Below are positions 1,729 to 10,103 of a DNA stretch of 64,000 nt, piece after piece. The notes beneath the pieces were generated by a model. It had not been told where the DNA came from and did no database searches. It was given only the letters and a program-made list of their open reading frames with translations. This stretch comes from Acidobacteriota bacterium. GTDB taxonomy: Bacteria > Acidobacteriota > Thermoanaerobaculia > Multivoradales > J023. A program made the position numbers and the translations under genes. The stretch is from positions 1 through 64,000 of the forward strand of contig JAJCXO010000058.1 in NCBI GenBank assembly GCA_029263395.1, written 5' to 3'. Numbering within the stretch: position 1 is the stretch's first letter; every line of letters starts with the position of its first letter.

Positions 1729-3003
1729 TCAGTCCAACCTCGAGTACCCCATCGTCGAGTGCTCGGCTTCTCCCTCGCTCCGTAGGGAGACCTCATGGGC
1801 CTCGTGGGCGTACGGTATCTCGAAGCGCTCGAACTGTTGCTGCACAACATGGGGTGGCAGTGACGCGACGCGTCGAGTATTGCGCTCGAGAAGGGTTGGC
1901 AGCGTCACATTAAAGGTCATTAGACGGACAAGGGCACCGTAGTCATAAGCCAGTCGGACGATAGCCGCACGCCGTTCCCGCATCAGGCCAGTCGAATCCC
2001 AGACCACGAGCCGCTTTGCCGCCAAGGCCCGTTTGAGACGCAGCTTCGCCTCTTGTACGACCTGGCCTTCGTGTTTACGATCGCGCCGACTGCCGAACAG
2101 CTCGAGCCGGATGTCGTCGAGAGCGATTACCTCAGCACCCTCCAGCTCAGTCTCGATCCAAGTCGACTTACCCGATCCTGCAACGCCACACATCACGTAG
2201 AGGATCGGAAACGGCTTCAAGTATCTGTGGCTACGGGCAATAGCTTCCTCAACTGTGTTGATGACACCAGCCTCGGCTTCCAAGACGGATTGGGCGCGTG
2301 CGACCGCTCGCATCTCAGGGCTTTCGCTATCGAACGCCGCATCGAGCGGCTCGGCCCACAAGAGGTGCCTGGGCGGCGAAGCGACCACCTGCTCTTCTTC
2401 ACAACGCAGGAAGAAAAAGTCCAGGGCTTCCAGTTGAGCTTCGAGGTCCGTGCATACCCGGCCACGGAAGTCTGCTTGTTCCAGCGCAAACAGTAGCCGA
2501 GGGCAGGCGTGGCGAGCCAGACGTAAGTAGGCCCCCGCGGATTGGTTGCGACGCGACAGGCGGAGCGGGTCGTGGTGATGCCCGACCAAGCTGAGAATCG
2601 TATCGAGCCTGGCTCCGGTGAGGCCGAGGGCAGGCAGCCTCTTACCGAGATAGGAGCGGCCTTTGTCCGCATGCCGAGGTGCGACGATCCGTTCGACGCC
2701 TTCCATCTGCTCTCGACGCGTCGAGATCGGCTTTGCGATGTCATGTAAGGCGGTTGCGAGGATCAAGGCGGCGCGATTTTCGCTGGAGAGACCTAGCGCG
2801 TCGAGGCTCGAGTACAGCTCGCCGAGGACGTTCTCCGTGTGGATCCGCACGTTGCCTTCGCCGTGCCACACCGGATCCTGCTCTGTCGCTTCCAACTCAT
2901 GCAGTAGCGGCAAGGCGTCGGCGAGCGTTGTCATGAGATCGGCCAGGCTCGGGCGCTCGCCGGTCTTCAAAGCCTCGAATAGGCGGCCCCCTGCCGCGCT
3001 CAT
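1729..3003 (-). CDS. HD-domain phosphoesterase fused to 5'-OH polynucleotide kinase (HD-Pnk), RNA end healing
   Basis: This 424-residue protein joins two domains. Residues about 55-170 are an HD-type phosphohydrolase: RIHTENVLGEL, the signature ATALHDIAKP, and VGHHHDPLRL. Residues about 265-410 are a P-loop polynucleotide kinase: VMCGVAGSGKSTWIE (Walker A), VIALDDIRLELFG, VVWDSTGLMRERRAAI, and an arginine-rich lid (LERNTRRVASLP). This order matches the HD-Pnk enzymes described from Runella. Those heal broken RNA or DNA ends by removing 2',3'-cyclic phosphate/phosphate ends and phosphorylating 5'-OH ends. The start at 3003 was chosen because the ATG shares one base with the stop of the upstream RNA ligase (TGATG), implying coupled translation. 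With the ligase it would make a complete heal-and-seal pair. Specificity (tRNA or other) cannot be read from sequence. Confidence 0.88.
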   Translation of the reverse strand: MSAAGGRLFEALKTGERPSLADLMTTLADALPLLHELEATEQDPVWHGEGNVRIHTENVLGELYSSLDALGLSSENRAALILATALHDIAKPISTRREQMEGVERIVAPRHADKGRSYLGKRLPALGLTGARLDTILSLVGHHHDPLRLSRRNQSAGAYLRLARHACPRLLFALEQADFRGRVCTDLEAQLEALDFFFLRCEEEQVVASPPRHLLWAEPLDAAFDSESPEMRAVARAQSVLEAEAGVINTVEEAIARSHRYLKPFPILYVMCGVAGSGKSTWIETELEGAEVIALDDIRLELFGSRRDRKHEGQVVQEAKLRLKRALAAKRLVVWDSTGLMRERRAAIVRLAYDYGALVRLMTFNVTLPTLLERNTRRVASLPPHVVQQQFERFEIPYAHEAHEVSLRSEGEAEHSTMGYSRLD

Positions 3004-3638
3004 CAGCCGTCCTCCGCAAGTGTGTTCGGAACCACTTGAGCATGCATCCAATGGGTGTCGGTCTGGACGTGATTGGGACGTACCCATTTGGCGACCGACG
3101 ATTGGAACGCATCGAAACCGAAACGCCCCGCCTTGCGCACGACGTAGCCTTCCATCGAGAGGTCGTCAACGTTGATGCCTTGGATTGCGTCGGCCCTCCA
3201 AGTGCCACGAAAGAGCTGCCGCGGCGTCGGCAGATCCAGCAGCCGAGCCCACTCGAGGGTCTCGTCCCACGATAGACATCGATTGTCCTCGCCCCAGATC
3301 GAGAACAAGTAGAAATATCCCGCTAAGTTGGTATACGCGATCGAGTGTCGAGCATAAAGATTTTCGCCGCAGAGTCTCCAACCGGCTGGGATCTCATGCC
3401 CAATTTCGGCCTGCAGCCGCTTGATCCGATCCCGGGACGGGTGATGCCGGGAATCGATCGATCTCGCGTGGACTCCATCCCGGTACATCGTCGTATTCTC
3501 GCCATCCATCTTCTCGGTCACGACCACCTCGAGGCCTTCGAAGTGAGTCGTGGCCGTCGCCCGGACGTCCTCTTCAGTGGCACCGGGAGACCAGGGGAGG
3601 TGAGGCGTCCGTGGGTACTTTGTTCTCGTGGATAACAT
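3003..3638 (-). CDS. RNA ligase (T4 Rnl2-like nucleotidyltransferase)
   Basis: A 211-residue ATP-dependent RNA ligase core. Nucleotidyltransferase motif I is EKMDGENTTMY, with the adenylated Lys in KMDG. Motif III is CGENLYARHSIAY, followed by YFYLFSIW (IIIa). Motif IV is MEGYVVRK and motif V is VAKWVR. The N-terminus KYPRTPHLPWSPG is typical of a bacterial subgroup of RNA_ligase proteins. The enzyme would join a 3'-OH and a 5'-phosphate, the ends produced by the downstream HD-Pnk. The start at 3638 (MLSTRTKYPR) fits the family; a longer frame to 3728 lacks homology. The size matches a minimal ligase without a large C-terminal domain. A 100-bp gap separates it from the ECF sigma gene upstream, so the pair could be read from that operon or from its own promoter. 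Confidence 0.88.
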   Translation of the reverse strand: MLSTRTKYPRTPHLPWSPGATEEDVRATATTHFEGLEVVVTEKMDGENTTMYRDGVHARSIDSRHHPSRDRIKRLQAEIGHEIPAGWRLCGENLYARHSIAYTNLAGYFYLFSIWGEDNRCLSWDETLEWARLLDLPTPRQLFRGTWRADAIQGINVDDLSMEGYVVRKAGRFGFDAFQSSVAKWVRPNHVQTDTHWMHAQVVPNTLAEDG

Positions 3639-3738
3639 AGCGGCAGCTCTTAACATGGCCAATTCGCGCTCGGCAAGGCGTCTAGCCCTGGCACAAAGCG
3701 TTGATGAGCTCAGCGAAGGGCCTGTCAACCTCCGGCTT

Positions 3739-4335
3739 CTAACAGGCCTCTGATTCCATCGGCTTCAGCTCGTGGAGATGCCGATAAAGCCATAGTTTGG
3801 ACATCGTCCACTTGCGCTTGACGGTGGTTGGGGAAACACCAAGCACTTCGGCGATCTCTTCGCGGGTGAGACCAGCAAAAAACCGCATCTCGACCACCGC
3901 ACAGCCGTCGGGATTGAGTTTTGCCATGTCGTGGAGCGCATCGTCGAGGGCGATGAGGTCGATCTCACGGGCTCGAGGCAAGATATGGTCGAGGTCGATG
4001 GCAGCACGCACTGCGTCGCCTCCACGTTTGGCCGCTCGGCGACCGCGGGCGTGATCCACCAACACGCAGCGCATGAGTCGTGCCGCAATGCCGAGGAAAT
4101 GCGCCCGGCTGCGCCACTCGACTTTGCCGACGTCGACCAAACGCAGGAACACTTCATTGACCAAGGCGGTCGGCTGCAGCGTGTGATCTCGACGCTCACC
4201 TCCGAAGTAGCCATGGGCTATTCGACGGAGCTCGTCGACCACCAACGGCATCAACTCCTCGAGCGCCGCGGCGTTGCCACCACGCCAGTCCAGCAACAAG
4301 GACGTGACGTCAAATCGGGCTTCGGTCATCAACAT
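3739..4335 (-). CDS. ECF-type RNA polymerase sigma factor (Acidobacteria/Planctomycetes subgroup)
   Basis: 198 residues. Region 2 spans about residues 10-105 (AALEELMPLVVDELRRIAHGYF, TLQPTALVNEVFLRLVD, FLGIAARLMRCVLVDHARGR). Region 4 spans about 130-190 (VVEMRFFAGLTREEIAEVLG followed by SPTTVKRKWTMSKLWLYRHL). This matches the Sigma70_ECF family known as TIGR02999, abundant in Acidobacteriota and Planctomycetes. It directs RNA polymerase to alternative promoters. GGAGG lies 9 nt upstream of the ATG at 4335; the stop of the upstream membrane protein is at 4337, so the two genes abut and are probably co-translated. No classical zinc-finger anti-sigma is seen; the upstream membrane coiled-coil protein is the best candidate partner. 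Its regulon is unknown but may include the RNA ligase/HD-Pnk pair just downstream. Confidence 0.92.
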   Translation of the reverse strand: MLMTEARFDVTSLLLDWRGGNAAALEELMPLVVDELRRIAHGYFGGERRDHTLQPTALVNEVFLRLVDVGKVEWRSRAHFLGIAARLMRCVLVDHARGRRAAKRGGDAVRAAIDLDHILPRAREIDLIALDDALHDMAKLNPDGCAVVEMRFFAGLTREEIAEVLGVSPTTVKRKWTMSKLWLYRHLHELKPMESEAC

Positions 4336-4336
4336 G

Positions 4337-5593
4337 TCAGTCGGCCTCCAAGGTCAGAGCATACAGGCCCAACTCGGTTCCGCGCTGCTCACCTGCGTTG
4401 GCGCTCCCGCGTCCACCAGCTGACAGACCACTGAGCCGCAGCTCATACTCCCCCGCCGGTAGCAAAGTTCGCGGCAGAGCAACGGTCAGTTCGGCGCCGC
4501 GGGTCGACAGCTGGCTACTGCTCCAAAGCACCCGCTCCGTGCCCCGGCGCCGCACCTCTAAGCGATATTTGGGATAGGTATCCGACGGCGCGAGCCGCAG
4601 AATCAGCATGAAAAGCTCGCTATCTGACGGTAACTTTAAACGCTCACCGCCACTGCGGGTGGGGCCCGAGGATAGTACGACGAAGGGTAGGTTGACCACA
4701 GGCTGCGGTCGCCGTGACGCCCCCAACTCACGTTGGGACGCTTCGAGCTCGGCAAGTTGCTGCTGATGCTCTTCGGTTGCCCGACCCAGGGCCGACTGCA
4801 TCCGTGCAAGATCCTGCTGATGGCTTTCGTGGGCCTGTTGTTGATCTTGCTCGAGCTCCGTAATTTGCTGACGATGTTCCTGTACGGCGGCCTCTTGCGC
4901 TTGCTCGCTCAGCATCAACTGTCGACCAAGGCCCAGGCTGATAACCAAAAGGACCGACGCCGCGAGCCCCATCGGTCCACCGAAGGTCGACCACCGACGG
5001 GCAGGTCGCGGCGGACGTATCGGCACCACATCCGCGAGCTCAGACTCCGGTGTCGGACGCGACACCGGCTCGATCGCCGTTGAAGCTGCGACGAGCGCGG
5101 CGCGAGCCCCGGTGAGTGTGTCTTCGACCCACTCGAGATACTCTGAGTCGAGATCGACCTCGCGCTCCTCGAGCGAACCACAAACCTCTCCGCGATCGAG
5201 AGCCGCCCAGTGCTCCTTCGCTGCTTGTACGATCTTCGAATCGAGCAGGCCGGTCGCAGTCGCCTGTTCGAACACCGCGGCCTTGACCCACGCTCCGAAA
5301 CCGCACCGCAGGCTCAGGGCACCACGCGAAGCGCTGGCCGGCACCGCCACATCCGAGCTACCGACCAGCGAGCTGGTATCGGCTGGAATTGCCAACACTC
5401 TTGGCGGATCCAGATCGAGAATAGCCCACTCGACGGACCACTCTGCGGTCTGTGGCAAAACGTAAAGGTTACCCACACGAGGCGTGATCGCGCCCCTCGA
5501 GTCACCTGATGCCGCTGCAGCCGCGGTGAGGGACACATTCGCTGTCCCCGTTTGCCGCCGCAGCTGATCCCGCAATCCGCTGTTCTGTTTCAC
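4337..5593 (-). CDS. Single-pass membrane protein with coiled coil, possible partner of the ECF sigma factor
   Basis: About 418 residues, not recognised as a named family. The N-terminal about 210 residues are soluble and acidic. A membrane helix follows (LAASVLLVISLGLG). Next is a Gln/Glu-rich coiled coil of about 70 residues (EHRQQITELEQDQQQ, then repeats of HQQQLAELE type), then a beta-rich C-terminal domain (FVVLSSGPTRSGGERL to YELRLSGLS) resembling an Ig-like sandwich outside the membrane. The GTG at 5593 is chosen because GAGGAG sits 6 nt upstream; an in-frame GTG at 5614 is an alternative that would touch the stop of the preceding gene (5616). It lies directly upstream of the sigma gene. 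Known ECF operons of this subgroup often pair the sigma with such a membrane protein, so a sigma-regulatory role is an inference from position. Confidence 0.72.
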   Translation of the reverse strand: MKQNSGLRDQLRRQTGTANVSLTAAAAASGDSRGAITPRVGNLYVLPQTAEWSVEWAILDLDPPRVLAIPADTSSLVGSSDVAVPASASRGALSLRCGFGAWVKAAVFEQATATGLLDSKIVQAAKEHWAALDRGEVCGSLEEREVDLDSEYLEWVEDTLTGARAALVAASTAIEPVSRPTPESELADVVPIRPPRPARRWSTFGGPMGLAASVLLVISLGLGRQLMLSEQAQEAAVQEHRQQITELEQDQQQAHESHQQDLARMQSALGRATEEHQQQLAELEASQRELGASRRPQPVVNLPFVVLSSGPTRSGGERLKLPSDSELFMLILRLAPSDTYPKYRLEVRRRGTERVLWSSSQLSTRGAELTVALPRTLLPAGEYELRLSGLSAGGRGSANAGEQRGTELGLYALTLEAD

Positions 5594-5615
5594 CACGTTC
5601 TCCTCGGTTTCCACA

Positions 5616-6866
5616 TCACCCTCGAGAGTCCTCGCCCTCGTGGTATGAGTTAACCGGTGGTTTTTCAGGATTGGCTGGACGGCAACGATCGACCAATTGG
5701 CGGAGGCTGTCGAACAGGCTCGGAATCCGCTCTCGAGGGATGTGCAACAGCTTACCCAGTTTGCGCGCTGACAGTTGTTCATCGTCGCTGGCGCCGGCCA
5801 TCTCGACTCTAGCGGCGGTCGCCGCAGCAGGGTTGCGGGTGGCGCCGGAGCGGGTGTGCAGAAACTCCCATAACCGGCTCAGATACTGTGTCCCTGAGGC
5901 GACTTCGCCGCCGGCTGAGCCACCGGAGGTCATCGCGTGACTGTCGGCGGCGCTCCGTGCTCGACGATCGATCCGCTCGCTGACACACGACACCAACCTG
6001 TCGTAGCTGTCGTGTTCCTCGAGTTCCACATCCGGCGCTGCTGAAGCCGGAGTGCGGCGCACCATCACCGGACTCCCCTCTTCGAGGCTGTCCAACGCCG
6101 TCTCTCCCTCCTCCAGGTCCAACAACGCTCCCCAGCGAGCCCGGGCGTCGTTCTTCAACGGTTCGATGATCTGCTTGAAGGTGAAGCTATGAAACCCGTC
6201 CTCCGGCAAGCCGATGACCAGGCTCTGGAGCCTCGCGATCACCAGCACACGTGCCTCACCGCGCGCCGTGACCAAGTCCGGAAGCAGGGTATCGTTCCAA
6301 CCCTTGACCGTCACCTCGAGGCGCTCCTCGGAGCCGGCATCACCTTCGACCGAGGGTGCACTTGGCCCGGCAACTCCCAGGAGCGTATCGTTGCGGATCC
6401 GTCGATCGCCGCCCAACAACGCTACGTCGCCTGCCTTCAAGGCGCCCCTGATCGCGGAACGCAGGATCTCGAACACCCTGAAACCCAGCGGATCGTGACG
6501 CTTTTGCAGGTCGTGCAGGAAATTCCGAATACCCAAGAAAACCAAGCCGTCGATGTTCGGTTTGATCGCCAACTGGGCTTTCAGCCCGCCGAGCCGACGG
6601 ACAAAGATGTGGGCATAACAACCCGCCAACAGCTCCTCCAGGGCCTGAGCCGATGTTTCGTGGGTCACCACCGCCCGCGAGTGCCAAGACTCGTAGCCGT
6701 AGACTCCCAAGAAGCTGGGGGACGTATCCCAAAGGCCTCGCTTCTTGAGCTCATTGCGAAGCGCTTGACCGAGCGCGCTCCAGAGGTCATCGAAGTTCTG
6801 AGGGTCGGGCGGCTGACCCGCAGAATCCAACGAGCGAACGTAGTTCGAGAAGACCTGCCTATCCAT
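5616..6866 (-). CDS. Uncharacterised protein, first gene of the ECF/RNA-repair operon
   Basis: About 416 residues, no family recognised, no signal peptide or membrane helix. The N-terminal half is globular (FDDLWSALGQALRNELKKRG, then SFLGVYGYESW). The middle (about 100-200) includes IDGLVFLGIRNFLHDLQKRH and VFEILRSAIRGALKAGDVAL. A Glu-rich linker follows. The C-terminal about 80 residues contain SARKLGKLLHIPRERIPSLF, which looks like a small helical recognition domain. The ATG at 6866 (MDRQVFSNY) is a guess: neither it nor the in-frame GTG at 6947 has a clear ribosome site. It is transcribed toward the coiled-coil protein and ECF factor, with the next gene's possible GTG start overlapping its stop region. 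It diverges from the TPR kinase at 7055, so about 190 bp hold two divergent promoters. Function unknown. Confidence 0.65.
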   Translation of the reverse strand: MDRQVFSNYVRSLDSAGQPPDPQNFDDLWSALGQALRNELKKRGLWDTSPSFLGVYGYESWHSRAVVTHETSAQALEELLAGCYAHIFVRRLGGLKAQLAIKPNIDGLVFLGIRNFLHDLQKRHDPLGFRVFEILRSAIRGALKAGDVALLGGDRRIRNDTLLGVAGPSAPSVEGDAGSEERLEVTVKGWNDTLLPDLVTARGEARVLVIARLQSLVIGLPEDGFHSFTFKQIIEPLKNDARARWGALLDLEEGETALDSLEEGSPVMVRRTPASAAPDVELEEHDSYDRLVSCVSERIDRRARSAADSHAMTSGGSAGGEVASGTQYLSRLWEFLHTRSGATRNPAAATAARVEMAGASDDEQLSARKLGKLLHIPRERIPSLFDSLRQLVDRCRPANPEKPPVNSYHEGEDSRG

Positions 6867-7049
6867 ACCCATCGCTGAGCGAGCCGAACCATCAATGCCC
6901 GCAATTTCTCCTTCGAACCCATCGACGATACGCTCTCTGGACCGCACTTCACATTACCATAGACCACCCTTCTCATTGGCCTCTCAGGCGGTCTGCTAAA
7001 CTTGGACTCTACCCACAAGTCGGCCCGCACAGCCGATAACCGCCGCCCG

Positions 7050-7066
7050 AGGAGGTGAAGGCGCTG
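7050..7066 (+). promoter_or_regulatory. Very strong ribosome site that places the kinase start at a possible CTG
   Basis: AGGAGGTGA (7050-7058) is a near-perfect anti-16S match. The in-frame GTG at 7055 lies inside it and is too close to be its start. The in-frame CTG at 7064 is 5 nt downstream and gives the family-typical N-terminus (L/M)TPEQWQQAEEIL. A CTG start is unusual. Confidence 0.5.
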
Positions 7067-9667
7067 ACCCCCGAGCAGTGGCAGCAGGCTGAAGAGATCC
7101 TGACCGACGTTCTGGAGCTTCCCGTCGACGAGCGCCAGGCGGCTCTCGCTCACGCCTGCCAAGGCGATGAGGGACTGCGTCGTGAGCTCGAGTCCTTGCT
7201 CGCCGCTTCCGATCCAGCAAAGAGTTTCATCGAAACGCCGGTTTTCTCATTGCGTTCGGAAGGGTTGCAAGAGATCCGTGAAGGCCAGAAGATCGGCTCG
7301 TACCGGATCGAACATCTTCTCGGGCGCGGCGGCATGGGCAGCGTCTTCCTCGCCACCCGTATCGACGAATTCGAAAAGCGTGTTGCGCTCAAGATCCTGA
7401 AGCCTGGGCTGAACACCGAGGCGATTGTCCAACGCTTCCGCCACGAACGCCAGATTCACGCCCACCTCGACCATCCCAACATCGCCAAGCTCCTCGACGG
7501 CGGCAGTACCGAAGAAGGTCTACCTTACTTCGTCATGGAGTTCGTCGAAGGCGAGCCGATTCATCACTACTGCGATCGACAACGGTTGACGATCCGCCAG
7601 CGCCTCGCCCTGTTCCGCAAGGTCTGTTCGGCCGTTCATTTGGCGCACCAGAACCTGATCGTGCACCGTGATCTCAAACCCGCCAACATCTTGGTCGGCG
7701 CCGACGGTGAACCCAAGCTCTTGGACTTCGGGATCGCCAAACCCCTCGATCCCGAAGATGCCTCGACCCTGCTGACCGCCACCGGCGCCCAGCCCATGAC
7801 CCTCGCTTACGCCAGCCCCGAACAGGTGGACGGCGAGGCCATCACTACCGCCAGCGATATCTACACGCTCGGTGTCATGCTCTACGAGTTACTCTCCGGA
7901 CGGCGGCCGTATCGCATCCCGACCAGCAAATGGTTGGATCTGGCACACGCGATCCGCGAAGAGCAGCCTGAGAAGCCGAGCACTGCGATTAGCCGGCGCC
8001 CAACAACTCCACGCTCGTCAACACAGCGCTCGTCAACACAGCGCTCGTCAACAACAAGCCAACAACCGACCGGAACAGCAACAGCTTCGCCAAGTGGCTC
8101 GAGCGATCTCGCGCCTGAACCAGCGTCGACGGACCGGACATGGGCACGTGACCCATCGACCCGCGATACGTCGCCGAGTGAGGCAGCGCTGACCACCGAA
8201 GAGCTGAGTTACCGGCGCTCCACCGACCCACGTGGCCTCAGACGGCGATTGAGCGGCGACCTCGACAGCATCGTCTTGATGGCTTTGCGCAAAGAGATGT
8301 CGCGCCGCTACCCCACCGTCGAACAGTTCTCTCGAGACATTGATCGTTTCCTCACCGGATTGCCGGTGGTGGCCCGCCCAGCAACCCTGGCCTACCAAGC
8401 GGGAAAGTTCGTTCGACGACACACCCTGGAATCTGTTCTGGTTGCTTCCTTGCTGATCACCATCATCGCCTTCGGAGTCACGGCGTTGAACATCAGAAAC
8501 CGCGCCGTACTCGAGCGTGAACGTGCTGAGGATGTCACCAGCTTTCTCGTCAACCTGTTCGAAGGCTCAAATCCCGACTCAGCCAAAGGCGAAGACGTCA
8601 CAGCGCTGGAGATTCTCGATCGTGGACGCCTACAAATCGAGACCTATCGGGAGAACGAACCGCGCCTCTATGCCATGTTGGCAGCCACTATGGGTCACGT
8701 GTATTACAACCTCGGACTGTTCGAGAAGGCTAGGCCGATGCTGGAAGAGGCGCTGCCGGGTCTGCAACGACACATCGGCAAAAAGGATGACCCGCAACTC
8801 GCGATCGTAGTCAACGACTTGGCGGCCGTCGTCTGGGCGCAAGGGGACTCTCAACGAGCCGAGACCCTGTTTCGACAGGCGCTCGAAATGAAGGTTCGAC
8901 TCTACGGTAACGTAGATCCAGCAATTGTCACCAACCTCAACAACCTGGCGGTCGCAACCAAACAACGTGGTGACCTGGAAGCCGCAGAGCAGCTTTATCG
9001 CCGCGGCCTGGGAATCCGCCTGCGTCAGGATCCTCCAGACCCCTCGGCCCTGGCCTACAGCCTGTCCAGCCTCGGAACGTTACTCCTCGATAAAGAAGCC
9101 AACGCACAAGCGTTGTCTCACTTCAATCGGGCCTTGGAGATCAGGCGCCAACTGTACGGTGATGAGCACACCAGTGTGGCGTTGGTACTCAACAACCTCG
9201 GGCTGGTTCACCAGGCGCTCGGGGCCACCACCGAGGCTGAGGCAACATTCCGTGAAGCGCTCAGAATCCGCCGCAAACTCCTCGGTGACGCCCACGCGGA
9301 TGTGGCTATTACCGAAACCAACCTCGCCTCGGTTTTGGTGGCACAAGCTCGATCACGAGAAGCCAACAATTTGGCGACCCGAGCTTTGGCCAACCTTCGG
9401 CAGTCGAAGCCTGGCCATTGGCGAGTCGCCCATGCTGAAAGTGTCCTCGGCAGTAGTCTTGTGCTGCTCGAAGACTTTGCTCGAGCCGAGTCACTTTTGA
9501 CCGCTAGCTATCCGATCCGAGAGACGCCTCACAACGATTGTTCCAAGTACAACCGAGACGCCTTACTCCGGCTCGAGTCACTCTACGAGGCTTGGGGAAA
9601 ACCGGAAGCAGCGCTCAGCTATCGAGCATCGCTCGACGCATGCTCGACACGCCGACAGCCGGCTTGA
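7055..9667 (+). CDS. Transmembrane Ser/Thr protein kinase with TPR sensor region
   Basis: About 870 residues. An N-terminal helical segment (TPEQWQQAEEIL, then LRRELESLLAA) is followed by a Hanks-type kinase domain from about residue 80: GRGGMGSVFLA (P-loop), VALKILK (ATP Lys), VHRDLKPANIL, LLDFGIAKPL, TLAYASPEQVDG. A Ser/Thr/Gln-rich linker of about 100 residues, containing three 15-bp repeats (8012-8056), separates the last kinase helices (DLDSIVLMALRKEMSRRYP). A membrane helix (SVLVASLLITIIAFGVTAL) comes next, then at least six TPRs of about 42 residues (for example VVNDLAAVVWAQGDSQRAE and LVLNNLGLVHQALGATTEA). Such kinases are common in Acidobacteriota and phosphorylate partners in response to what the TPRs bind. 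The start is GTG 7055 or, better placed, CTG 7064. The 3' end overlaps a convergent gene by 53 bp. Confidence 0.93.
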   Translation: MKALTPEQWQQAEEILTDVLELPVDERQAALAHACQGDEGLRRELESLLAASDPAKSFIETPVFSLRSEGLQEIREGQKIGSYRIEHLLGRGGMGSVFLATRIDEFEKRVALKILKPGLNTEAIVQRFRHERQIHAHLDHPNIAKLLDGGSTEEGLPYFVMEFVEGEPIHHYCDRQRLTIRQRLALFRKVCSAVHLAHQNLIVHRDLKPANILVGADGEPKLLDFGIAKPLDPEDASTLLTATGAQPMTLAYASPEQVDGEAITTASDIYTLGVMLYELLSGRRPYRIPTSKWLDLAHAIREEQPEKPSTAISRRPTTPRSSTQRSSTQRSSTTSQQPTGTATASPSGSSDLAPEPASTDRTWARDPSTRDTSPSEAALTTEELSYRRSTDPRGLRRRLSGDLDSIVLMALRKEMSRRYPTVEQFSRDIDRFLTGLPVVARPATLAYQAGKFVRRHTLESVLVASLLITIIAFGVTALNIRNRAVLERERAEDVTSFLVNLFEGSNPDSAKGEDVTALEILDRGRLQIETYRENEPRLYAMLAATMGHVYYNLGLFEKARPMLEEALPGLQRHIGKKDDPQLAIVVNDLAAVVWAQGDSQRAETLFRQALEMKVRLYGNVDPAIVTNLNNLAVATKQRGDLEAAEQLYRRGLGIRLRQDPPDPSALAYSLSSLGTLLLDKEANAQALSHFNRALEIRRQLYGDEHTSVALVLNNLGLVHQALGATTEAEATFREALRIRRKLLGDAHADVAITETNLASVLVAQARSREANNLATRALANLRQSKPGHWRVAHAESVLGSSLVLLEDFARAESLLTASYPIRETPHNDCSKYNRDALLRLESLYEAWGKPEAALSYRASLDACSTRRQPA
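8012..8056 (+). repeat. Three 15-bp units in the kinase linker
   Basis: Units of CGCTCGTCAACACAG at 8012, 8027 and 8042 encode RSSTQ-type repeats in the disordered linker of the TPR kinase. Frame is preserved. Confidence 0.85.
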
Positions 9668-10103
9668 GCCCGCCGCCTTTTTGGCCGAGCCAGCGCTCCG
9701 CAAGTCCGTTGGGATCAATCTCGATCTCCTGAGCCACCACTCCATCAGCGGTGAAGCCGTTGGGATCGATCTCAATCTCCTGAGCTACCACTCCATCAGC
9801 GGTGAAGCCGTTGGGATCGATCTCGATCTCCTGAGCTACCGCTCCATCTGCGGTAACACCGTTGGGATCGATCTCAATCTCCTGAGCTACCACTCCATCA
9901 GCGGTGACACCATTGGGATCGATCTCGATCTCCTGAGCCACCACTCCATCAGCGGTGACGCCGTTGGGATCGATTTCGATCTCCTGAGCCACAACTCCAC
10001 TTACCAGGACATCTGGAACCACGTCCAGGGCAGACGTTTCAGATACGTTGACCAAAACCGACAGCACCAAGGCGATCCATACTTCAATCATTCGATTGGA
10101 CAC
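9615..10103 (-). CDS. Secreted protein built of six 17-residue repeats
   Basis: 162 residues, family not recognised. The N-terminus is a signal peptide (MIEVWIALVLSVLVNVSETSA). Residues about 35-137 are six near-identical 17-residue repeats of the form VVAQEIEIDPNGVTADG, acidic and with an Asp-Pro-Asn-Gly turn. A non-repeat tail (ERWLGQKGGGLKPAVG) follows. The GTG start at 10103 has an excellent ribosome site (AAGGAGG, about 7 nt upstream), the main evidence for a real gene rather than an open repeat. It is read against the TPR kinase and overlaps its 3' end by 53 bp. The Asp-rich repeats could bind Ca2+ or form a structural fibre, but this is speculation. The opposite strand is also open across the repeats because the period (51 bp) is divisible by three. 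Confidence 0.75.
   Translation of the reverse strand: MSNRMIEVWIALVLSVLVNVSETSALDVVPDVLVSGVVAQEIEIDPNGVTADGVVAQEIEIDPNGVTADGVVAQEIEIDPNGVTADGAVAQEIEIDPNGFTADGVVAQEIEIDPNGFTADGVVAQEIEIDPNGLAERWLGQKGGGLKPAVGVSSMRRAMLDS
9710..10015. repeat. Six tandem 51-bp units
   Basis: The word TTGGGATC recurs with an exact 51-bp period (T before GGGATC at 9710, 9761, 9812, 9863, 9914 and 9965). Units differ by a few substitutions (for example GAAGCC versus GACACC). They encode the 17-residue repeats of the minus-strand secreted protein. Confidence 0.95.

Follow-up and report, generated by a model that had tools for sequence, protein, structure and literature searches.

A predicted heal-and-seal RNA-repair cassette beside a kinase-linked ECF sigma cluster in an acidobacterium: probably two units, not one system

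Introduction

When genes follow one another closely on one strand, do they form one system, or have two systems come to lie side by side? The question is raised by a five-gene run in an Acidobacteriota bacterium (Thermoanaerobaculia; Multivoradales; J023), on contig JAJCXO010000058.1 of GenBank assembly GCA_029263395.1. Positions 1 to 64,000 of this contig were analysed and are referred to below as the window. The run encodes an unknown protein (UNK), a membrane coiled-coil protein (MEM), an extracytoplasmic function (ECF) sigma factor, an ATP-dependent RNA ligase and HD-Pnk, a predicted RNA end-healing enzyme. An earlier description made from the DNA letters alone (the sequence-only reading) took the last two for an RNA heal-and-seal pair and reasoned that RNA repair would stand under a membrane-sensing sigma circuit if the genes are transcribed together. 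We know of no described example of ECF or kinase control over a ligase–HD-Pnk pair.

Comparison with other genomes points to a different view. Most likely, two independent units stand side by side: a kinase-linked ECF sigma cluster (3739-9667) and an RNA-repair cassette (1729-3638) that was most likely acquired horizontally. A five-gene run can resemble one system; here, comparison with the sister genome shows a sharp break at which two units meet.

Results

Our sample of relatives held a single genome of the same genus, G001, which is 86% complete. In this genome, too, a kinase gene adjoins UNK; the kinase is 82% and UNK 71% identical to its window counterpart. The sigma gene of G001 is split across two contigs, C742 and C560, which share exactly 17 bp at their ends, within the gene. 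Compared with the window sigma factor, its two parts show 98% and 91% identity, and the next best own-genome paralogue reaches 62%. DNA homology between the window and G001 does not extend beyond window position 3726, which lies 13 bp after the sigma stop. The sigma gene of G001 is followed by two open reading frames (ORFs) on the opposite strand, a convergent one at 360-1373 and another at 1783-3150 of C560. Ligase and HD-Pnk are absent from C560, a contig of 3691 bases that extends about 3.4 kb beyond the end of the homology. Past the sigma gene, C560 matched nothing in the window or in the loci compared, except another copy of itself. Against the window's own genome, the second ORF gave only partial matches (33 and 20 bits). 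Since this DNA has no match in the window and its second ORF has only weak matches, the DNA after the sigma gene differs between the two genomes. No ligase match was found in G001 or in the five other genomes of the same family that were searched, and the sole HD-Pnk match in G001 lies on a different contig and covers query residues 34-218, the HD part.

A search of the genome collection returned 432 stretches that encode relatives of the ligase. Our counts cover the best 80 of these, with loci of at most 7 kb on each side, some of which end at contig ends. In all 80, an HD-Pnk match starts at most 505 bp downstream of the ligase on the same strand. A related ECF sigma factor was present in two loci (L147, at 5.2 kb; L148, at 3.9 kb, E = 8.7e-7). 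No locus of the 80 had the pair directly after a related sigma gene, and neither UNK nor MEM was detected in any of them by tblastn. The sequence-only reading had held that its proposal would fall if the RNA genes were never near the sigma gene in other genomes. This is nearly what was observed: two loci hold a related sigma factor, and in that of the closest relative (L147) it lies on the opposite strand. With so few sigma factors near the pair, and with a sister species whose sigma cluster lacks the RNA genes at this place, the comparative data give no support for a selected link, and the proposal of conserved co-regulation of RNA repair by the sigma factor is not supported.

In a quick tree, the window ligase groups with that of a Rhodothermia metagenome-assembled genome (69-70% identity, SH-aLRT 92), away from four ligases of its own order; the nearest kin found belong to another phylum. 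Ten of the 147 genomes in the relatives sample, the window's own included, contain a ligase match. Outside the own genome there are nine: seven align over 196-223 residues at 33-38% identity, and two matches span only 37-38 residues. HD-Pnk was found in none of the nine loci fetched for these distant same-order ligases (L066-L074). Three examples from the same loci show 35-40% identity to the window ligase over the aligned part. A search for HD-Pnk gave matches in 43 of the 147 genomes, and nearly all of those listed cover the HD part or the kinase part alone. The only other listed place with both parts is in G006, where they form one protein with 26% identity, in a genome without a ligase match. 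Across the phylum, 10 of 396 genomes match the ligase profile at E ≤ 1e-10: the own genome at 5.9e-116, G316 at 2.3e-70 and eight others at 1.6e-37 to 9.4e-15. Neither HD-Pnk nor a related sigma factor was found in the stretches fetched around the ligases of G316, G404, G319, G160, G258 and G379; in G316, of the same phylum, 0.75 kb separates the ligase from the end of its contig. Thus, the closest ligase relatives, in several phyla, keep HD-Pnk adjoining, while more distant ligases of the same order and phylum have no HD-Pnk nearby.

The pair is also present on three Deinococcus plasmids, in D. radiodurans MP1 (with PARG between the two genes) and in phage LR756500 (as adjacent genes), and a Vibrio plasmid carries HD-Pnk with a ligase about 11 kb away. 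Three other phages encode the ligase; for these, HD-Pnk was matched neither in the stretch nor, at E 1e-5, in the record, and one of the three has two weak sigma-profile matches (E 6e-4). The other neighbours of the pair vary, hence its regulation probably varies too.

The function of the pair can be read in part from its neighbours. ORFs from 84 loci with the pair were clustered, each cluster being named from one example and represented by at most 12 listed loci. An RtcB-type cluster was found in 16 of the 84 loci, an RF-1-domain cluster in 15 and an RlaP-type cluster in eight. Among the loci listed, the members of these three clusters come from gammaproteobacteria, apart from L148 (Verrucomicrobiales), which belongs to the RlaP cluster. 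In 20 loci, the pair is followed by a large MJ1316/2H/poly(A)-polymerase-type protein; the 12 of these that were listed are from actinobacteria. Neighbours of these kinds argue for a role in RNA repair, not DNA repair. The co-occurrence of ligase–HD-Pnk with RtcB, RF-1 and RlaP genes (e.g., in L153, L159, L170, L180, L181 and L184) suggests composite RNA-repair islands. In the excerpted text of PMC7824862, jumbo-phage RNA ligases accompanied by kinases and phosphatases are described as repairing RNA cut by host defences. The prediction that ligase and HD-Pnk act as a heal-and-seal pair is therefore supported by their families and neighbours, and this part of the sequence-only reading holds, with HD-Pnk next downstream on the same strand in every one of the best 80 relatives and RNA-repair neighbours in some lineages. 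In such a scheme, HD-Pnk would heal the RNA ends, taking off 3' or 2',3'-cyclic phosphates and adding a phosphate to 5'-OH ends. Sealing of the healed ends by the ligase would then undo RNA cleavage, probably of tRNA or rRNA.

Table 1. Features of the sigma cluster and the RNA-repair cassette (window positions)
Feature	Position	Strand	Evidence and remarks
HD-Pnk	1729-3003	-	PF01966 HD (4.7e-7) and PF13671 AAA_33 (5.3e-25)
ATP-dependent RNA ligase	3003-3638, ATG start	-	PF09414 (5.9e-30), KMDG present
Sigma–ligase gap	3639-3738		100 bp, from sigma stop to ligase ATG
ECF sigma factor	3739-4335	-	TIGR02999 / PF07638 (Sigma70_ECF), LQPT at DAED position
MEM, membrane coiled-coil protein	4337-5614, GTG start	-	One hydrophobic stretch (by eye), no family
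UNK, unknown protein, about 416 aa	5616-6866	-	No Pfam or NCBIfam family
TPR Ser/Thr protein kinase	7055-9667	+	Divergent, adjoins UNK; Pfam scan

The five minus-strand genes fall into two tight blocks, UNK-MEM-sigma and ligase-HD-Pnk, with 100 bp between them (Table 1). In the first block, UNK and MEM are 1 nt apart, as are MEM and the sigma gene; in the second, the ligase TGA overlaps the HD-Pnk ATG (TGATG). Pfam and NCBIfam scans recovered the domains of HD-Pnk, ligase and sigma factor as first described, and the ORFs agree with the earlier account of five same-strand genes and the TGATG overlap. The neighbourhood also includes the divergent kinase gene, which that account had missed. With their tight spacing, UNK, MEM and the sigma gene probably form one operon, the TPR Ser/Thr kinase gene being divergent from it. 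A mobile-element boundary at the cassette was sought and rejected: there are no convincing flanking repeats, and the pairs seen, one of 23 nt at 78% and others shorter, appear to be chance matches. Clear tandem duplications at this place lie only 3' of HD-Pnk (20 nt at 1465-1504, 36 nt at 1620-1701). Downstream of HD-Pnk, at 900-1728, no clear intact gene was seen; a short hydrolase-like ORF lies at 920-1243 (by eye).

UNK and MEM belong to no family that our searches could name. For UNK, neither Pfam nor NCBIfam gave a family up to E 0.1. MEM had no Pfam family up to the same threshold, and its three NCBIfam matches, none of them to an anti-sigma family, were far below the cut-offs. When UNK relatives were searched against Pfam, two members alone gave no family and 18 members gave scattered weak matches, each to a single member. 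A PDB search for UNK returned nothing significant (best E 0.99), and a structure of UNK predicted from the single sequence had too low a confidence to be of use (mean pLDDT 41.8). The idea that UNK is a hidden sigma factor was rejected on the Pfam and PDB results and on a profile comparison with a sigma alignment, which gave a probability of 0.4% over 18 columns.

The distribution of UNK is patchy, with matches in 16 of the 147 sample genomes (own included) and in seven of the 396 across the phylum. Its neighbourhoods were counted at 31 places in 29 loci; 41 matches were listed, some of them pieces of one gene. A profile for MEM, derived from these very loci, matches on the same strand no more than 800 bp away at 28 of the 31 places. 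Within 5 kb there is a CHAT protein at 15 or more places, a sigma factor at 13 or more and a kinase at 11 or more, these being lower bounds as some loci are cut short close to the gene; Pfam confirmed seven of the CHAT-TPR neighbours. A ligase or HD-Pnk was found within 5 kb of UNK only in the window (also a lower bound). Outside the window, the co-occurrence of sigma factor, UNK and RNA genes that the sequence-only reading had proposed to look for was not seen at these places, nor was it in the 80 ligase loci. UNK forms part of one long ORF of 682-835 aa in seven loci, and in L048 the MEM match falls within that ORF. The joining of UNK and MEM in one ORF suggests that the two proteins may act together. 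Their genes make up an uncharacterised pair, UNK-MEM, found repeatedly alongside CHAT-TPR proteins, TPR kinases and ECF sigma factors (loci L047-L065 and L075-L083).

The sigma factor scores 197.7 bits against TIGR02999, whose cut-off is 126.15. In region 2.2 it has LQPT where other ECF sigma factors carry DAED, the register being taken from the downstream L-x-x-E-x-[FYW]-type pattern. Among 44 distinct homologue segments, in which a gene present in two loci may count twice, 27 carry LQPT, 15 carry other words, none carries DAED and two fall outside the pattern. The kinase has a hydrophobic stretch between its kinase domain and its TPRs (by eye), which suggests a membrane kinase. According to the available portions of PMC8999054, sigma factors of the ECF43 group have no DAED and are switched on by a Ser/Thr kinase encoded next to them, while ECF54, with CHAT, subtilase and carboxypeptidase neighbours, is proposed to be controlled by proteolysis. 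Since the window sigma factor has LQPT instead of DAED, as a sigma factor without DAED in the manner of ECF43, activation by a kinase would fit it better than an anti-sigma model. From the ECF43 work we infer that the kinase probably senses a signal and then activates the sigma factor by phosphorylating the LQPT Thr. The term "membrane-sensing" in the sequence-only reading would accordingly suit the divergent plus-strand kinase, and less so the minus-strand coiled-coil protein.

Homologues of this sigma factor are numerous. The window's own genome (G000, 10.68 Mb) has 59 matches to it, about one per 181 kb, and six relatives have 9 to 63. On a rough estimate that assumes about 9,000 genes, the chance of landing directly behind such a sigma gene is below 1% per gene, which is uncommon, though not remarkable for a gene that could have inserted at any place in the genome. 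Beyond the kinase gene, at 9706-9999, a 51-bp unit is repeated in tandem (5.8 copies, 91% matches), and the array is open in frame on both strands.

Discussion

We favour two independent units, the cassette most likely having been gained by horizontal transfer just 3' of the sigma stop. Several observations weigh against this view. The preference for gain here over loss in G001 depends on six relatives without the cassette, of which some are incomplete genomes (G001 at 86%, G005 at 81%). GC and GC3 of the ligase–HD-Pnk cassette match those of the neighbouring genes, and composition was rejected as a sign of transfer. At L147, which holds the closest ligase relative, the cassette has a kinase and sigma pair close by, encoded on the other strand and pointing towards it. 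In the 100-bp gap (3639-3738), simple consensus scans detected no terminator-like and no sigma-70-like promoter site. As to repair chemistry, the accessible text of PMC1997131 reports that DRB0100, the D. radiodurans ligase, had adenylyltransferase activity and no DNA ligation, alone or with its operon partners. The same text describes DRB0098, the HD-Pnk, as a 5'-kinase whose 3'-phosphatase was not assignable to the HD domain, as HD-motif mutants kept the measured activity.

The gap bears most directly on the first alternative, in which the five genes would be one transcription unit in this strain: the acquired pair landed at the 3' end of a kinase-sigma circuit, and repair is induced with the sigma regulon. 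We regard this as improbable. It is favoured by the shared strand, the short gap and the lack in it of a terminator-like hairpin or sigma-70-like promoter. The sequence-only reading had named a strong promoter and terminator there as evidence against its proposal, and the scans found neither; with neither detected, read-through from the sigma cluster into ligase–HD-Pnk is possible in this strain. However, the arrangement is not conserved, the RNA genes being absent after the G001 sigma gene, and in no case among the 80 best relatives does the pair come straight after a related sigma gene. Moreover, on the UNK strand no significant motif is common to the gap and the UNK leader (453 of 500 shuffles were as good). 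On the opposite strand of that leader there is one 13-nt match, reached by 6 of 500 shuffles; with two tests made, this is weak. A promoter motif common to the gap and the leader of UNK and the Ser/Thr kinase (STK) was rejected for want of a convincing match. The gap folds no better than shuffled sequence (z 0.12). In the open-access literature, judged by titles and opening lines of abstracts among the matches listed, no paper was found on an ECF sigma factor controlling a ligase–HD-Pnk pair, and the terms "extracytoplasmic function", "RNA ligase" and "RNA repair" together returned, within the same limits, one phage genome paper. Capture of a mobile heal-and-seal cassette by a kinase-activated ECF sigma operon, such that a membrane kinase would switch on RNA repair, appears to us just as doubtful.

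A second alternative is that the cassette was ancestral to the cluster and was lost in G001. The RNA genes are intact and of native composition, and a single deletion would also yield the G001 arrangement. However, no ligase match exists in the six same-family genomes searched, nor in 137 of the 147 sample genomes; the nine other sample ligases are distant or short matches, none with HD-Pnk in its fetched locus; and the nearest kin found belong to another phylum. Ancestral presence is thus an unlikely history, and acquisition of the cassette remains our preferred reading. Finally, it is improbable that MEM is a membrane anti-sigma factor that holds the sigma factor in the canonical ECF style: it does stand directly before the sigma gene with a 1-nt gap and has a hydrophobic stretch (by eye), but it belongs to no anti-sigma family in Pfam or NCBIfam, it is adjacent to UNK at 28 of 31 places while a sigma factor lies within 5 kb at only 13 and a CHAT protein at 15, and the missing DAED points to a kinase.

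Comparison with known systems

RtcB is a ligase unrelated to the window ligase, and sigma-54 and RtcR are unrelated to the ECF sigma factor. The likeness of the RtcR/sigma-54 rtcBA operon to the window, in the portions of the sources available, is that of an RNA-repair operon under an alternative sigma factor. The sigma cluster resembles the ECF43-type systems EcfP/PknT and EcfK/PknS, as described in parts of PMC8999054, in the lack of DAED in region 2.2, the presence of a Thr and a Ser/Thr kinase gene nearby; this likeness is drawn from motif and neighbours, and overlap of TIGR02999 with ECF43 is assumed. The window differs in its divergent kinase gene and in the additional genes UNK and MEM.

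The closest described counterpart of the cassette is the D. radiodurans set DRB0100-DRB0099-DRB0098 (ligase, PARG, HD-Pnk), to which record NC_000958 was tied through gene order and annotation. The two sets share ligase family, HD-Pnk architecture, ligase-first order and strand. In the window, HD-Pnk is a single protein with an N-terminal HD domain (residues 56-150) and a C-terminal P-loop kinase (AAA_33, 268-397), and the ligase directly upstream on the same strand is a PF09414 protein with the KxDG motif. The window ligase is 60-61% identical to those of the three Deinococcus plasmids and 54% identical to that of D. radiodurans MP1. For HD-Pnk, the corresponding values are 41-42% and 35%, and the HD and P-loop residues are conserved in the alignment with the Deinococcus homologues. 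Judged by these features, the window pair is a putative RNA-repair cassette of the DRB0100/DRB0098 kind, a kind already described. In the text available from PMC11833690, the term RNA/DNA ligase is used for DRB0100, and the three genes are taken as a putative operon. In that of PMC1997131, the operon rises after irradiation; both sources, to that extent, present a putative repair operon induced by irradiation or DNA damage. D. radiodurans has PARG between the two genes, whereas the window, where the genes overlap, and the three other Deinococcus plasmids do not, and PARG was therefore not treated as defining for the wider ligase–HD-Pnk pair. The plasmid pairs of Deinococcus KNUC1210, D. taeanensis and QL22 share the overlapping stop and start with the window. 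They differ in their neighbours, e.g., an aldo/keto reductase, an ABC transporter and a uracil-DNA glycosylase, and no related sigma factor was found in these three plasmid loci. The window pair differs from the DRB operon, in turn, in standing behind an ECF sigma cluster.

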